Under the pieces are notes generated by a model that was not told the DNA's origin, searched no databases, and worked only from the letters and a program-made list of their open reading frames with translations. 64,000 nt of DNA, from positions 1,178,001 to 1,242,000 of the forward strand of contig NZ_CP059557.1 of the NCBI RefSeq assembly GCF_022828475.1. The letters run 5' to 3'. The translations under genes were made by a program, and so were the position numbers. Shown here piece by piece: positions 26,361-44,043 of this stretch; the stretch's first letter is position 1, and the number at the start of each line of letters is the position of its first letter. The stretch is from Saccharopolyspora gloriosae. Lineage in GTDB: Bacteria; Actinomycetota; Actinomycetes; Mycobacteriales; Pseudonocardiaceae.

Positions 26361-26460
26361 GCGGAACCTCAGCTGTCTTCTCGCTGCGGGATCTTTTTCC
26401 CTAGTGGCTCCGCCACGAGGGAAAAAGCTGTCCTCGCGAGAAGACAGCTGAGAACCCGCG
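26361..26460. repeat. two-tier palindromic repeat, family A copy 3
   Basis: The outer stem is CTCAGCTGTCTTCTCGC with its exact complement. Compared with copy 1 (CTCAGTTGGTCTCTCGC) the middle bases changed on both sides, so pairing is kept. The inner stem CTTTTTCCCTAGTGG / CCACGAGGGAAAAAG is identical to copy 1. It lies between the start of the antiporter gene and the 3' end of the LppZ-like gene. Confidence 0.88.
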
Positions 26461-32103: not shown

Positions 32104-32408
32104 CCCTCGATGCTCTCACCCGTGCGCACACCGCCCGCAGAGTCCCGGACGCTCACCGCCCCGCGGCCGGTTTCCACCGTGACGGTCGGTCGCGCCGCTG
32201 CTGCGCGCGGGCATTTCCGCCCGGTGGCCTCCTGGTCTCGGCGGTTCCGGGGTCGCCGGTGGCCACTCGTCGTGGATCGAAGCGACGTACGCCACATCGG
32301 ACTCGGCCGAATGCGAACTCGATACCTGTGAGCAGCGAAAACGAGCTCTGGATTCGACGTGTCGAGCCACCTTCGCGTCCACCATGCGGGAACCGCGTCC
32401 CGCATGGT

Positions 32409-32437
32409 TTGACCTCGTGGTGTCACTGCCGTTAACG
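32409..32437 (+). promoter_or_regulatory. candidate ilvBNC promoter
   Basis: A TTGACC -35 element at 32409-32414, a 17-base spacer and TTAACG as -10 at 32432-32437. A transcript starting six to nine bases later would begin at, or within a few bases of, the ATG of the leader peptide (32446). Confidence 0.55.
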
Positions 32438-32445
32438 TCCTCGCC

Positions 32446-32496
32446 ATGCTGCGACTGCACGACATTCTCGTACTTCCCCGGCGCGTCTACGCCTGA
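32446..32496 (+). CDS. ilvBNC leader peptide
   Basis: A 16-residue open frame, MLRLHDILVLPRRVYA. Seven of 16 codons are Leu, Ile or Val, clustered as ILVL. The core ILVL-x-(K/R)RV resembles the leader peptide I recall upstream of Streptomyces ilvB. No ribosome-binding site precedes the ATG and the likely -10 is only eight bases upstream, so the message is probably leaderless. A ribosome slowed at these codons when branched-chain aminoacyl-tRNA is scarce would affect the hairpins that follow. Confidence 0.85.
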   Translation: MLRLHDILVLPRRVYA

Positions 32497-32562
32497 GGAA
32501 GCTCCGCAGCGTCGACGCGCCAACCCTCGTACGGTCCCTATTGGTCCGACGGGGGTTTTTTC
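32480..32562 (+). promoter_or_regulatory. ilvBNC transcription attenuator
   Basis: Two consecutive hairpins. The first pairs 32480-32492 (GGCGCGTCTACGC, the last leader codons) with 32509-32521 (GCGTCGACGCGCC), one mismatch. The second starts at the very next base: AACCCTCGT-A-CGG (32522-32534) pairs with CCGACGGGGGTT (32546-32557, one bulged A), followed by TTTT, a classic terminator. The leader stop codon lies in the loop side of the first hairpin. The two hairpins abut but do not overlap, so the antitermination step is not fully explained by these pairings alone. Confidence 0.8.
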
Positions 32563-32607
32563 GTGCCCAACTCACCGACCACCACCGTTCGGACAGAGGC
32601 GAACTCG

Positions 32608-34436
32608 ATGACCAGCGCCCACACCAGGCAGAGCCCGGTCCCGGCACCGCCGCCGGGACACCGTTCCAAGCCAGCACCGCCCAGCGACGCCCCAGTGCAG
32701 GTCACGGGCGCGCAGTCGCTCGTCCGGTCGTTGGAGTCCGTCGGCGCCGAGATCGTCTTCGGTATTCCCGGCGGCACCATCCTGCCTGCCTACGACCCGC
32801 TGCTGGACTCCACGAACGTCCGGCACGTCCTCGTTCGCCACGAACAGGGCGCCGGGCACGCGGCCACCGGATACGCCCAGGCCACCGGGAAGGTCGGTGT
32901 GTGCATGGCGACCTCCGGTCCCGGCGCGACGAACCTGGTCACGGCGTTGGCCGACGCGCAGATGGACTCGGTGCCGATCGTCGCGATCACCGGTCAGCAG
33001 GCCACCAACCTGATCGGCACCGACGCCTTCCAGGAAGCCGACATCTGCGGCATCACGCTGCCGATCACCAAGCACAACTTCCTGGTCACCAAGGCCGAGG
33101 ACATCCCGCGCACCATCGCCGAGGCGTTCTACATCGCCGCCTCCGGACGTCCCGGCCCGGTGCTGGTGGACATCCCGAAGGACGTCCAGCAGACCGCGAC
33201 CTCGTTCTCCTGGCCGCCGGAGATGAAGCTGCCCGGCTACCGCCCCACCAGCAAGCCGCACGGCAAGCAGGTGCGCGAAGCCGCGAAGCTGATCACCGCG
33301 GCGCAGCGGCCGGTGCTCTACGTCGGTGGTGGCGTGCTCAAGGCCGAAGCGACCGAGCAGCTGCGCAAGCTCGCCGAGGCCACGAACATCCCCGTCGTCA
33401 CGACCCTGATGGCGCGCGGCGCGTTCCCCGACTCGCACCCGCTGAACCTGGGCATGCCCGGCATGCACGGCAAGGTCGCCGCCGTCGCCGCGATGCAGCG
33501 TTCCGACCTGCTGATCACGCTCGGCGCCCGGTTCGACGACCGGGTCACCGGCCAGCTGTCCTCGTTCGCACCGGACGCGAAGGTCGTGCACGCCGACATC
33601 GACCCGGCGGAGATCTCCAAGAACCGCAACGCGGACGTGCCGATCGTCGGTGACTGCAAAGAGGTCATCACCGAGCTCATCGACGCCGTCGCCACCGCCA
33701 CCGGCGAGAGCGGCACCGCCGACCTGGGGCCGTGGTGGACGCAGCTGAGCACCTGGCGCGACACGTTCCCGCTGGGCTACGAGTGGCCCGCGGACGGCAG
33801 CCTCGCTCCGGAGTACGTCATCGAACGGCTCGGCGCGCTCGCCGGTCCGGAAGCCGTGTACGCGGCGGGCGTCGGCCAGCACCAGATGTGGGCGGCCCAG
33901 TTCGTCAGCTACGAGAAGCCGCGGACCTGGCTCAACTCCGGCGGTCTCGGGACCATGGGCTATGCGGTTCCGGCCGCGATGGGCGCCAAGGCCGGGGTGC
34001 CGGACGCGCAGGTCTGGGCCATCGACGGCGACGGTTGCTTCCAGATGACCAATCAGGAACTCGCCACCTGCGCCATCGAGGAACTGCCGATCAAGGTCGC
34101 CGTCATCAACAACGGCAACCTCGGTATGGTCCGGCAGTGGCAGAGCCTGTTCTACGCCGAGCGCTACTCACACAGTGACCTCGGTACCCACAAGCACCGC
34201 ATCCCCGACTTCAAACTGCTCGCCGAGGCGCTCGGCTGCGCGGGCCTGCGGTGCGAGTCCCGCGAGGACGTCGACAGCGTCATCCAGCGGGCGATGGAGA
34301 TCAACGACCGACCCGTCGTGATCGACTTCGTGGTGGGCAAGGACTCCCAGGTGTGGCCGATGGTGGCCGCGGGCACCGGCAACGACGAGATCATGGCGGC
34401 GCGCGGAATCCGCCCGCTGTTCGACGAGGACGAGGG

Positions 34437-34440
<4 letters not shown>
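32608..34440 (+). CDS. ilvB: acetolactate synthase large subunit
   Basis: A 610-residue ThDP- and FAD-dependent enzyme making acetolactate or acetohydroxybutyrate. The catalytic Glu is in [16 protein letters not shown]. Further landmarks are [49 protein letters not shown] and the ThDP motif [18 protein letters not shown] use the ATG at 32608, preceded by AGAGGCGAA; a GTG at 32563 directly after the attenuator T run is in frame but lacks a ribosome-binding site. It is first in ilvBNC, and its stop overlaps ilvN. Confidence 0.96.
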
Positions 34441-40511: not shown

Positions 40512-40667
40512 CCCGGCTCACCTGCATCACCCGTTCGAGTGTCCCGCCAATCGGGAAGCCTCGACCACTTGGTGGGTCCGGCGTGCCTGCGTGCGTGGCC
40601 TTGCCGGTAGCCTTCGGCGCAACAGTTCTAGCCCCGCGGTTCGGGGTGGTAGTCGGGAGGTGTGTAC

Positions 40668-41711
40668 ATGCGGCTCGCTGTGATCCCCGGTGACGGGATC
40701 GGGCCGGAAGTAGTGGCCGAGGCGCTCAAGGTGCTCGGTGAGGTCGTTCCCGATACCGAGATCACTCGATACGACCTGGGAGCCGCGCGCTGGCACGCGA
40801 CCGGTGAGCTGCTACCGGAATCGGTGCTCACCGAATTGCGCCAGCACGATGCGATCCTGCTCGGTGCGGTCGGCGACCCCTCGGTGCCCAGCGGGATCCT
40901 CGAGCGGGGGCTGCTGCTGCGGCTGCGCTTCGAGCTCGACCACCACGTCAATCTCCGCCCAGCCCGGCTGTACCCGGGCGTGAAGAGCCCGGTCAACGAC
41001 CCGGGTGAGATCGACATGGTGGTGGTGCGCGAAGGCACCGAAGGCCCGTACGCGGGCAACGGCGGGCTGCTGCGCAAGGACACCACGCACGAGATCGCCA
41101 CCGAGGTCAGCCTCAACACGGCGTTCGGCGTGGAGCGGGTCGTGCGGGACGCGTTCGCCCGTGCCGCATCCCGTCCGCGCAAGCACCTCACGCTGGTGCA
41201 CAAGACCAACGTGCTCACGCACGCCGGTTCCTTGTGGTCCCGCGTGGTCGAAGAGGTCTCGCTGCAGCACCCCGACGTGACGGTGGCCTACCAGCACGTG
41301 GACGCCACCACGATCCACTTGGTGACCGACCCGAGCCGGTTCGACGTGATCGTCACCGACAACCTGTTCGGCGACATCCTCACCGACCTGGCGGGCGCGG
41401 TCACCGGCGGCATCGGGCTGGCGGCGAGCGGCAACATCGACGCCACGCGCCGGAACCCGAGCATGTTCGAGCCGGTGCACGGCAGCGCGCCGGACATCGC
41501 CGGGCACGGTTCGGCGGACCCGACGGCCGCGGTGCTGTCGGTGGCGCTGCTGCTCGACCACGTCGGGCAGACCGAGGCGGCACGGCGGGTGGAGGCATCG
41601 GTGGCCTTCGACCTGGCGACTCGTGACCACTCGGCGCCGGGCGCGACCTTCGCCGTCGGCGATCGGCTGGCGGCGCTGGTGTCCTCCCGCGAGGTGGCCC
41701 AGCAGGCCTGA
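40668..41711 (+). CDS. leuB: 3-isopropylmalate dehydrogenase
   Basis: A 347-residue NAD-dependent enzyme for the third step of leucine synthesis. Landmarks: [20 protein letters not shown], the [16 protein letters not shown] loop, [27 protein letters not shown] and the NAD-binding [20 protein letters not shown]. The ATG at 40668 has GGGAGG seven bases upstream; a GTG two codons earlier is in frame. It is shorter than enterobacterial LeuB, as usual in actinobacteria. leuCD lie 9 kb downstream. Confidence 0.96.
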
Positions 41712-41724
41712 TCCACGCACGCAC

Positions 41725-41760
41725 AACGGGCGTCTTCCCTCCGGGGAAGGCGCCCGTTCT
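41725..41760 (+). terminator. terminator of leuB
   Basis: AACGGGCGTCTTCC pairs with GGAAGGCGCCCGTT (one wobble) around a six-base loop, 14 bases after the leuB stop. Confidence 0.82.
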
Positions 41761-41800
41761 GCGTTCTGGGGTCGGGCCGTCCTGCATTGGTGGTCGGGTG

Positions 41801-41900
41801 GCGGAACCTCAGCCGTCTTCTCGCTGCGGGATCTTTTTCCCGAGTGGCTCCGCCACGAGGGAAAAAGCTGTCCTCGCGAGAAGACAGCTGAGAACCCGCG
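41801..41900. repeat. two-tier palindromic repeat, family A copy 4
   Basis: Same stem version as copy 3 (CAGCCGTCTTCTCGC against GCGAGAAGACAGCTG). One change, C for T, gives a C-A mismatch on one strand and a tolerated G-T pair on the other. The inner stem has CCCGAGTGG in place of CCCTAGTGG, which now pairs fully with CCACGAGGG. It follows the leuB terminator. Fragments of the companion repeat (CATCGGCTTCGCCGCTGACAGG) follow near 41932. Confidence 0.85.
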
Positions 41901-42065
41901 GCGGGTCGTTTTGCTCTGGTGGTCACTGCTCATCGGCTTCGCCGCTGACAGGAAGACGACCGGAGGCTCGCTCGGCTGCGGCCTAAGGCGACATCAACCT
42001 TGGTGCGCGGGTTGGTGTGAGCGGCCAGGGGAGCCGTTCGGGGTGTGGGGCGGTTCGACCAGGTG

Positions 42066-42096
42066 GTGACGGGTGGCCGGGTTGTGGCAGCATACG
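42066..42096 (+). promoter_or_regulatory. candidate cimA promoter
   Basis: A GTGACG -35-like element at 42066-42071 and GCATAC/CATACG as -10 around 42090-42096, spacing 18-19 bases. The match is modest. If used, transcription would start about at the GTG of the leader peptide (42100). Confidence 0.4.
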
Positions 42097-42099
42097 GGC

Positions 42100-42144
42100 G
42101 TGGCCATCAGCTCCCTGATCATTATTGGACCGCGCGCCGGGTGA
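42100..42144 (+). CDS. cimA leader peptide, isoleucine-rich
   Basis: A 14-residue open frame starting with GTG: MAISSLIIIGPRAG. Four of 14 residues are Ile (ATC, ATC, ATT, ATT), three of them consecutive, with one Leu and a GTG start. The product of the downstream pathway is isoleucine. No ribosome-binding site is visible and the possible -10 ends only a few bases upstream, so this leader too may be leaderless. It is followed directly by an attenuator hairpin pair. Confidence 0.75.
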   Translation: MAISSLIIIGPRAG

Positions 42145-42199
42145 CGACTCCGCACCCCCGGCGCGCAGACCTCTCGCATTGTCGCGGGGGGTCTTTTTT
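42132..42199 (+). promoter_or_regulatory. cimA transcription attenuator
   Basis: The first hairpin pairs 42132-42141 (GCGCGCCGGG, last leader codons) with 42157-42166 (CCCGGCGCGC), perfect 10 bp. The next base starts the terminator: 42167-42177 (AGACCTCTCGC) pairs with 42184-42194 (GCGGGGGGTCT, two G-T wobbles) and is followed by TTTTT. Layout, spacing and abutting hairpins are the same as upstream of ilvB. Control of cimA by isoleucyl-tRNA supply is the natural inference. Confidence 0.8.
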
Positions 42200-42277
42200 G
42201 TGCCCGGAAACTCCCGCCACGCAGCGTGGCGACCGGCCCGCCGAGGCATCGACATCGAAGCCGACAGGAGACGTCCA

Positions 42278-43921
42278 GTGACTCGCACGACCCCGACAGC
42301 TTCCCCCTTGGGCGACGAATTCCACGTCTACGACACCACGCTGCGCGACGGAGCCCAGCGGGAAGGGATCTCCTACTCGGTTCCGGACAAGATCGCGGTC
42401 GCCCGGCTGCTGGACTCCCTCGGCGTCGGCTTCATCGAAGGCGGCTGGCCCGGCGCGCTGCCGAAGGACACCGAGTTCTTCGCCCGCGCCGCCGCCGGTG
42501 AACTGGAACTGCGCCACGCCGCGCTCGTCGCCTTCGGCGCCACCCGCCGGGCCGGGGCGCAAGCGCACGAGGACCCGCAGGTGCAGGCGCTCGCCGCCTC
42601 CGGTGCCCCGGTCGTCACGCTCGTGGCCAAGTCCGACCGCAGGCACATCGAACGCGCGCTGCGCACCAGCGTGGACGAGAACTGCGCCATGGTCGCCGAC
42701 ACCGTGCGCTACCTGGTCGGTGAGGGGCGCCGCGTGTTCGTCGACGCCGAGCACTTCTTCGACGGCTACGCCCACGACCCGGACTGCTCGCTGCGCGTGC
42801 TGGAGGCCGCGGTGACCGCCGGCGCCGATGTGGCGGTGCTCTGCGACACCAACGGCGGGCAGCTGCCCACCGGGCTCGCCGACACCGTGCGGGAAGTCGT
42901 GGCGCGCACCGGATTCCGCGTCGGCATCCACTGCCAGGACGACACCTCCTGCGCCGTGGCGAACTCGGTCGCGGCGGTGCAGGCGGGCGCGACACACGTG
43001 CAGTGCACCGCGAACGGTTACGGGGAACGCGCGGGCAACGCCGACCTGTTCGCCGTGCTCGGCAACCTCACGACGAAGCTGGACATGCCGGTGCTGCCTG
43101 CGGGCAGGATCGCCGAGCTCACCCGCGTCTCGCACGCGCTCACCGAGATCGCCAACCTCGCCCCGGACACCCACCAGGCCTACGTGGGCGCGTCGGCGTT
43201 CGCGCACAAGGCCGGACTGCACGCCAGCGCGATCAAAGTGGACCCGGAGCTCTACAACCACCTCGACCCGGCCGTCGTGGGCAACAAGATGCGGGTGCTG
43301 GTCACCGAAATGGCCGGGCGGGCGAGCCTCGAACTCAAAGGCGCCGAGCTCGGGCTCGACCTGACGGACTCGCCGACGGCCGTCAGCGCAGCGGTGCGCA
43401 AGGTCAAGGAGCTGGAGGCGCGCGGCTGGTCCTTCGAAGCCTCCGACGCCTCGCTGGAACTGTTGCTGCGCCGCGAACTCACCGCGGCGGGCGACGAGGA
43501 CGCGGGCGAGCACGACGCACCGTTCGACCTGGAGTCCTACCGGGTGGTGCTCGATCACCGGCCGGACGGCGCGGTCGTGTCGGAGGCGACGGTGAAGGTG
43601 CACGTGGCGGGCAGCCGGGTGATCGCCACCGCCGAGGGCAACGGCCCGGTGAACGCGCTGGACGCCGCGCTTCGGGAGGCGCTCGTGCCGCGATTGCCGT
43701 GGCTGGACTCGGTGGAACTGGTGGACTACAAGGTCCGCATCCTCACCGATGCCTCCGGGACGGACGCGGTGACGCGGGTGCTGGTCGAGTCCCGCGACGG
43801 CGAGGACGAGTGGACCACGGTCGGCGTGCACGGCAGCATCGTCGAGGCGAGTTGGCTGGCCCTGTGCGACGCCCTCGCCTACAAGGCACTGCGGCACAAC
43901 GCGATCGCCGAGACGCGGTGA
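42278..43921 (+). CDS. cimA: citramalate synthase (CimA; 2-isopropylmalate/homocitrate synthase family)
   Basis: A 547-residue enzyme. The N-terminal TIM barrel has VYDTTLRDGAQREGISYSV, LCDTNGGQLPTG and GIHCQDDTSCAVANS with catalytic metal ligands; QCTANGYGERAGNADLFAV is typical of CimA. The C-terminal LeuA-type regulatory domain (DYKVRILTDASGTDAVTRVL) probably binds isoleucine. CimA condenses pyruvate with acetyl-CoA and opens a threonine-independent route to isoleucine. The isoleucine-rich leader upstream supports citramalate over isopropylmalate as the product. The GTG at 42278 has AGGAGA eight bases upstream. The FAH gene follows at 44044. Confidence 0.9.
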   Translation: MTRTTPTASPLGDEFHVYDTTLRDGAQREGISYSVPDKIAVARLLDSLGVGFIEGGWPGALPKDTEFFARAAAGELELRHAALVAFGATRRAGAQAHEDPQVQALAASGAPVVTLVAKSDRRHIERALRTSVDENCAMVADTVRYLVGEGRRVFVDAEHFFDGYAHDPDCSLRVLEAAVTAGADVAVLCDTNGGQLPTGLADTVREVVARTGFRVGIHCQDDTSCAVANSVAAVQAGATHVQCTANGYGERAGNADLFAVLGNLTTKLDMPVLPAGRIAELTRVSHALTEIANLAPDTHQAYVGASAFAHKAGLHASAIKVDPELYNHLDPAVVGNKMRVLVTEMAGRASLELKGAELGLDLTDSPTAVSAAVRKVKELEARGWSFEASDASLELLLRRELTAAGDEDAGEHDAPFDLESYRVVLDHRPDGAVVSEATVKVHVAGSRVIATAEGNGPVNALDAALREALVPRLPWLDSVELVDYKVRILTDASGTDAVTRVLVESRDGEDEWTTVGVHGSIVEASWLALCDALAYKALRHNAIAETR

Positions 43922-44043
43922 GGTGGGCCGCCGTTCGGGCGGGAACGGCCCGGGCGGCGGCACCGCATAGGCTGGGAGGGTTCGTTCCGTCCGAGCACGA
44001 GCGAGCCGAATGCGAAACAACCGGGAACGAAAAGAGGTCCGCC

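Follow-up and report, generated by a model that had tools for sequence, protein, structure and literature searches.

Upstream of cimA in the window (by which we mean the whole stretch of 64,000 nucleotides analysed, part of a 6.88 Mb single-contig genome) lies what is probably a translated, isoleucine-specific leader-peptide attenuator of this gene. Its anatomy, its specificity for Ile and its hairpins are shown by comparison; that it answers to Ile-tRNA, and does so by a read-through step, we infer. The leader is real, widely conserved and specific for isoleucine, and it is apparently unreported for cimA. It adds a new member to the leader-peptide attenuators of branched-chain genes, which in Actinobacteria are known from ilvB and leuS. 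Its parts, and the gene behind it, are the following:

42064..42071, + strand: weak -35-like region TGGTGACG, placed by the site of TTG in the alignment of 81 sequences described below and by an 18-base spacer to the -10 box (inference)
42083..42093, + strand: extended -10 box TGTGGCAGCAT, from conserved columns in 100 class-wide cimA elements
42100..42144, + strand: leader ORF, peptide VAISSLIIIGPRAG followed by stop, predicted to be leaderless; direct reading, start and stop in frame in 81 of 81
42118..42126, + strand: control codons ATC ATT ATT (Ile-Ile-Ile), conserved in the 81 sequences, with ATT enriched
42132..42166, + strand: hairpin P1, whose 5' arm covers the end of the leader frame with its stop codon; folding and consensus structure
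42167..42199, + strand: hairpin P2 with T run, an intrinsic terminator; terminator scan, folding and consensus structure
42278..43921, + strand: cimA, citramalate synthase of 547 aa, the presumed regulated gene; TIGR00977

Leader frame, hairpins and promoter

Read directly, the leader consists of the codons GTG GCC ATC AGC TCC CTG ATC ATT ATT GGA CCG CGC GCC GGG TGA, from the GTG at 42100 to the TGA at 42142-42144. A preliminary description of this DNA had claimed a frame of 14 codons with four Ile codons, three of them consecutive, and this is what is found, with Ile at codons 3, 7, 8 and 9. It had further claimed an inverted repeat across the leader stop codon and a terminator with a T run, everything within 100 bases and just upstream of cimA. 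These points, too, are borne out: the repeat is P1 (42132-42166); the P2 stem (42167-42194) has 11 pairs and a loop of 6 and runs into the Ts at 42194-42199; frame, both hairpins and T run all lie inside 42100-42199, and the leader elements end 78 bases before cimA. An intrinsic terminator between leader and structural gene, as it is typical of ribosome-mediated attenuators, is thus present.

The alignment of relatives, which the same description had proposed as a check, was run with the window and the best 80 of 186 relatives from a protein search of named genomes (the 81-set). It kept the Ile codons in 81 of 81 sequences, the rare ATT with them, and both hairpins with compensatory changes. 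Having been gathered by protein match, the set is free of selection on Ile codons. Among these best 80 of 186, the nearest named relatives of the window's cimA are Saccharopolyspora; judged from the record titles, the 80 are presumably mostly Pseudonocardiaceae.

All 81 aligned cimA genes are preceded by an in-frame leader of 10-19 residues with adjacent Ile codons, which starts with GTG (48) or ATG (33) and ends at an in-frame stop. Two adjacent Ile codons occur in every leader, three in 64 of the 81. Ile occupies the first control position in 65/81, the second in 81/81 and the third in 80/81; positions 2 and 3 vary, with one exception, at the third base only. A frame by chance is excluded, mainly because it is conserved in 81/81 aligned relatives, and the conserved frame, together with the third-position variation in the Ile codons, supports translation of the leader. 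ATT makes up 126 of 226 Ile codons in the leaders versus 39 of 1047 in 80 cimA genes (Fisher p 3.5e-75, a value that is overstated by the relatedness of the sequences), and it accounts for 2 of 113 Ile codons in six window genes. ATT codons may slow decoding. Conservation and codon content support the sensing of Ile-tRNA, to the charging of which the leader would respond.

A riboswitch or a T-box, instead of a translated leader, would likewise be a conserved structured RNA ahead of a biosynthetic gene. However, no Rfam family reached its gathering threshold at the leader in the window or at ten related loci. Up to an E value of 10, the leader yielded a sub-threshold sRNA match only (16.3 bits, where the gathering score is 50), and the Rfam matches within the window are four tRNAs, all of them elsewhere. 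Nor does it suit a riboswitch or T-box that two conserved Ile codons vary at their third positions, with that one exception in 81. Such a device is hardly credible here.

The leader of 106 bases folds at -50.9 kcal/mol, which none of 200 shuffles matched (z -4.0). On both strands of 41000-44000 there are 4 terminator-like sites, P2 among them, versus 1.0 +/- 1.0 in shuffles. The RNAalifold consensus of the 81-set has 9 pairs in P1 and 10 in P2. Changes on both sides affect 3 of the 9 and 1 of the 10, in total 4; 99.9% of the P1 and P2 cells are paired, and 0/500 shuffles reached any of five measures. In two class-wide alignments, which were fitted to a covariance model and hence lean towards structure, 120 and 130 cells are changed on both sides, corresponding to 12/19 and 15/19 pairs; in the one with 12 changed pairs, 5 of 500 shuffles also reached 12, the other four measures remaining at 0/500. 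Alignment A2 mixes elements of cimA, ilvB and leuS and includes one spurious partial match of 16.7 bits. In Kutzneria (L020) the leader stops before P1 and the P1 stem is still intact, which means that P1 is kept for its RNA structure and not just for the codons it contains.

The control might, of course, be translational, i.e., a stalling event in the leader might free the cimA ribosome-binding site. The minimum-energy fold of the window, a single sequence, indeed pairs the Ile codon region with the cimA start region, but the conserved terminator with its T run lies in between, and we regard translational control as very improbable.

The -10 box is well conserved in the 100 class-wide cimA elements (T3 94, G4 97, A7 90, T11 97). 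In the 81-set, the first four columns of the box are conserved partly because TGTG was the chosen anchor; CAnnAT follows right behind TGTG, and TTG stands further up with an 18-base spacer; at this site the window has TGG, or GTGACG two bases further on. In the 100 class-wide elements of cimA, which were positioned by means of the model, no -35 signal exceeded the threshold. The distance from the first T of TGTGG to the leader start is 16-19 bases in 81/81 sequences (17 or 18 in 76/81). With the start codon mostly 6-7 bases behind the box, the leader mRNA is probably leaderless. A promoter box directly before the predicted start codon is also what characterizes the actinobacterial leaderless branched-chain leaders: in the accessible part of PMC8079986, the S. 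lividans leaders are leaderless with a -10 consensus TAnnnT and a weak -35 nTGACn, and the C. glutamicum ilvB leader is nearly leaderless according to the part of PMC11857589 at hand.

The gene behind the leader and the distribution of the element

The cimA frame most likely starts at GTG 42278, preceded by AGGAGA. Its protein scores 580.8 bits against TIGR00977 (citramalate synthase, cut-off 450) and 229.4 bits against the best isopropylmalate synthase model, below the cut-off of 517. A separate leuA elsewhere in the genome (867 bits, cut-off 697) implies that cimA is not needed as leuA. A candidate for a threonine dehydratase is also present (435 bits, cut-off 379), so that with cimA the genome probably has two entries to isoleucine. 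The preliminary description had favoured a role in isoleucine and not in leucine synthesis; this role of the enzyme is supported by the Ile codons of the leader, the TIGR00977 match and the separate leuA. Such enzymes are often annotated as 2-isopropylmalate synthase, and the leader gives a sequence-based reason to assign them to isoleucine synthesis. It would put citramalate-dependent isoleucine synthesis in many Actinomycetes under an isoleucine-specific sensor, beside the mixed-codon sensor of ilvB.

A covariance model (R1) of the cimA leader was used for genome searches. In the window's own genome it scores the cimA element at 107 bits and nothing else above 16.3 bits. Within the order, 269 of 397 genomes have a match to it, and within the class 175 of 296. 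cimA itself is present in 298 of the 397 genomes of the order. When the lists were compared by eye, 265 genomes had both element and cimA (in some of them the match is at ilvB, not at cimA), 4 the element only and 95 neither; in the remaining 33 of the 298 cimA-bearing genomes an R1 match is absent genome-wide. The four genomes of the window's own family in which the element is missing have no cimA either. Twenty cimA upstream regions without model match were inspected, 17 from the 33 and 3 with a match at ilvB only: a leader is clear in three (L257, L270, L273), doubtful in two (L255, L262) and missing in 15. In nine loci (L256, L260, L261, L263, L264, L266, L267, L271, L272) leuB is closely followed by cimA, and inspection by eye revealed no leader and no T-run terminator; this suggests that the element was lost there with fusion of leuB and cimA into one operon. 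Among the cimA matches listed for the order, four (G344, G050, G157, G237) have one in-frame stop inside the matched frame.

Upstream of cimA the window holds ilvB, ilvC, serA and leuB, with

32605-34440: ilvB, from the scan
40662-41711: leuB, from a profile match

leuB has a hairpin of its own just past its stop, at 41725-41758 (z -7.7, 0/200 shuffles as good). It is without T run and absent from the results of two scans. The gap between leuB and cimA also contains an imperfect palindrome of about 99 bases (41801-41899), a high-copy interspersed repeat with at least 40 copies in the genome, itself included, at 95-100% identity (40 of 328 candidates scored); a second copy in the window is found near 26365-26460. 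The repeat resembles a MITE or REP-type element.

One may ask whether the hairpins before cimA are just a constitutive terminator that insulates cimA from leuB, the small frame being incidental. That the terminator is strong would agree with this, yet the hairpin behind leuB is strong, too, though it lacks the T run, and insulation does not account for the conservation of Ile codons, start codon and promoter box in the 81-set. Moreover, by eye, several genomes with cimA directly behind leuB miss the leader, as is expected if the leader belongs to cimA's own promoter. Insulation is unlikely by a wide measure, and the attenuator is preferred.

Codon content and sister leaders

A part of all element matches in order and class, 133 in number, was fetched and classified: 100 lie before cimA, 29 before ilvB, 1 before leuS, and 3 are unassigned. 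Leaving out 2 of the 100 cimA and 3 of the 29 ilvB elements, in which there is no leader frame, adjacent Ile codons are found in 92/98 cimA leaders versus 1/26 ilvB leaders, Ile counts that are partly selected by the model, since R1 contains Ile columns. The longest branched-chain runs add up to I 226, L 50 and V 42 in cimA leaders and to L 52, V 39 and I 19 in ilvB leaders. The only leuS leader matched by the cimA model (L155) reads MAAYGLLLT. The codons thus suit the pathway of each gene: Ile before cimA, Leu, Val and Ile before ilvB, whose enzyme is shared, and Leu before leuS. A short ORF with codons for the pathway's end product, as attenuators have it, precedes cimA in 81/81 near relatives and in the said 92/98 class-wide.

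Three elements were unassigned. In L156, from one genome of the window's family, an element at 464-571 with the leader MSLGLIIIDGAG precedes an ORF (612-1712) that, named by eye, resembles a leucine/valine dehydrogenase. In L218 (2501-2610, - strand) the leader MFTPRIII precedes an ACT-domain-like protein which by eye resembles the small subunit of acetolactate synthase. The third, L225, ends at the contig end.

The window itself has a sister leader:

32446..32496, + strand: leader before ilvB, MLRLHDILVLPRRVYA followed by stop, with Ile-Leu-Val-Leu; sequence, by eye
32480..32561, + strand: its hairpin P1 and terminator with T run; folding

It folds at -55.5 kcal/mol (0/200 shuffles as good) and has the same layout as the cimA leader. 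R1, run on the own genome up to an E value of 10, missed it; its hairpin was picked up by the P1 pattern (G000:1210481). In the own genome the P1-plus-ACC pattern gives 8 matches, ilvB and cimA among them, versus 20 for the reversed control, and therefore is not enriched; at the other six matches no T-run terminator was seen by eye. That one genome has two leaders alike in layout but different in their codons makes the attenuation mechanism of these bacteria directly accessible to tests. Directly before the -35 of ilvB (TTGACC) lies a palindrome, CCATGCGGGA-ACCGCG-TCCCGCATGG (32382-32414), which may serve a branched-chain regulator as operator. Some other leaders of ilvB and cimA have, by eye, similar GTGGGA motifs upstream.

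The ilvB attenuators (IlvL of C. glutamicum, the ilvB-II motif, ilvB1 of M. tuberculosis, IlvL of S. lividans) share with the cimA leader a short ORF that has branched-chain codons and is leaderless or nearly so, a hairpin near its end and a terminator; they mix Leu, Val and Ile, whereas the cimA leaders are built on Ile. The Streptomyces leuS leader (LeuL2), as far as it is covered in the accessible parts of PMC8079986 and PMC1262725, is similarly leaderless with a hairpin and a U stretch (PMC8079986), but has Leu codons, an aminoacyl-tRNA synthetase as target and a predicted antiterminator (PMC1262725). The LEU element of actinobacterial leuA also has a run of one branched-chain amino acid; unlike the cimA leader, it forms a pseudoknot whose base stem covers the Shine-Dalgarno box (PMC1262725, in part), and LeuL1 of leuA has no typical intrinsic terminator (PMC8079986, in part).

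For Actinobacteria, the accessible part of PMC1262725 describes leaders of trp, cys, ilvB, leuA and leuS and T-boxes of ileS, and a cimA leader is not named there. S. lividans has eight leaders, including leaderless ones of ilvB and leuS, without a cimA leader among the eight in the part of PMC8079986 at hand. The gene names did not turn up in the accessible part of PMC4833913. By title and start of abstract, in a search that left subscription journals largely outside, no report of a leader or attenuation for cimA or citramalate was found. The same holds, again by title and start of abstract, for a cimA leader at SCO5529, which we take to be S. coelicolor cimA.

The stalled ribosome and the terminator

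The attenuator may be pictured as follows. Transcription would start at or next to the leader start codon, as the promoter box suggests, and the ribosome would load without a Shine-Dalgarno sequence. If Ile-tRNA is ample, it would clear the Ile codons, terminate and depart; P1 would close, and P2 would halt most transcription ahead of cimA. If Ile-tRNA is scarce, the ribosome would stall on the Ile codons with its leading edge touching the first bases of P1, and RNA polymerase would presumably pass P2 more often. Related leaders speak on both sides. In an M. tuberculosis ilvB1 reporter, replacement of LVVI by alanine leaves a low, dose-independent expression (PMC13236596, accessible part), which counts for the attenuator as pictured; in the S. 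coelicolor ilvB leader, codon changes were without effect on regulation (PMC1262725, accessible part), which counts against a stalling model.

The E. coli trp attenuator resembles the cimA leader in its control codons, first hairpin and terminator with T run. Its leader, trpL, differs in having a normal ribosome-binding site. When the full-length cimA leaders were folded at equilibrium with ribosome masks, the terminator was kept in 81/81 at each Ile stall; it fell below 0.5 in 11/81 without ribosome and in 1/81 with the ribosome at the stop. The conclusion that no antiterminator exists had to be dropped, since the trpL control also keeps its terminator (0.90 at Trp) and the test is thus uninformative. 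It was replaced by folding before the 3' arm of the terminator is made, in which the probability is scored that the 5' arm is paired upstream. For trpL this probability is 0.62 if the ribosome sits at Trp, 0.01 if it sits at the stop and 0.31 without ribosome. The means for the 81 cimA leaders are 0.085, 0.26 and 0.50 at Ile1, Ile2 and Ile3, 0.49 at the stop and 0.34 without ribosome. Folding that clearly detects the stall-specific antiterminator of trp sees in the cimA leaders a weak alternative hairpin, which appears when a stall at the last Ile masks P1 but equally with the ribosome at the stop, and no stall-specific one.

A local solution is conceivable. In examples, the alternative pairing is a small hairpin made of the freed P1 3' arm and the end of the terminator 5' arm. 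In the window's family, the candidate step would be a pairing of GCG in the freed P1 3' arm (81/81) with the CGC that ends the terminator 5' arm (76/81; TGC in 5), somewhat like the three-hairpin model proposed for the Corynebacterium glutamicum ilvB leader. At Ile3 the pairing probability of the terminator 5' arm exceeds 0.5 in 43 of the 81 leaders, and class-wide (96 cimA and 26 ilvB elements kept, two more dropped) in 20/96 cimA elements at the last control codon versus 28/96 at the stop; such a pairing is, hence, at best local. For a pairing of the P1 loop with the terminator 3' arm, as proposed for Corynebacterium in the accessible part of PMC10272879, there was no clear signal (mean z -0.62; 75 sequences, 6 of the 81 being dropped as duplicates), and the same 75 sequences gave no clear signal for leader-to-terminator and arm pairings compared with shuffled strands. 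P1 loops of 6 bases or fewer are found in 12 of 94 class-wide cimA elements (6 of 100 left out).

P1 starts 5 bases past the last control codon in 81/81 near relatives. Class-wide, 9 cimA and 5 ilvB elements without clear hairpin or run being left out, this gap is found in 51/91 cimA and 21/24 ilvB leaders; other gaps of the cimA leaders are mainly 2 (12), 8 (11) and 6 (6), and 7 leaders have 20 or more. The leader stop lies at the base of P1 (+2) in 47/91 cimA and 18/24 ilvB leaders and ten bases inside (-10) in 25 and 4, respectively, i.e., the 5-base gap is better conserved than the position of the stop codon. A GC-rich hairpin a few bases past the control codons and then a terminator, the arrangement of the ilvB/leuS kind, is thus found here. 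The leading edge of a ribosome lies about 12 bases beyond its A site, so that a ribosome stalled at the last control codon would reach over about the first GCGC of P1, a stretch that does not vary within the 81-set. This suggests that the position of the ribosome relative to P1 is what is read.

Taken to its end, this leads to a variant of the proposed attenuator, not exclusive of it, in which the distance from stalled ribosome to P1 does everything: P1 would be a pause or antiterminator hairpin that forms at first-Ile stalls, is opened when the ribosome advances, and shares no pairs with the terminator. With the ribosome stalled at Ile1, Ile2 or Ile3, the P1 3' arm is paired with a probability of 0.997, 0.81 or 0.33, respectively, the gap is kept (81/81 near, 51/91 class-wide) while the stop is at the P1 base or 10 inside, the compact P1 loops leave no other strand, and a hairpin that is prevented by a ribosome at the stop is described in the accessible part of PMC13236596. 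On the other hand, full-length folding keeps the terminator in 81/81 at each Ile stall, the test being blind even for trpL. We also know of no way in which a hairpin one base upstream could weaken a terminator without shared pairs. Distance alone is, therefore, a doubtful explanation, if a possible one.

Similarly tentative is a generalization: an Actinomycetes-wide device of two hairpins without a true antiterminator strand, in which the fixed gap would read the stalled ribosome, a swap of codons (Ile, Ile-Leu-Val, Leu) would retarget it to cimA, ilvB and leuS, and the stop position would be irrelevant. If this is true, attenuation would here be of a non-classical type, which could account for the lack of a clear codon effect in the Streptomyces ilvB leader.

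A natural lengthening of the control region is seen in the leader of L070, which has two separated runs of Ile codons and ends in MIISGIIIDERVG.
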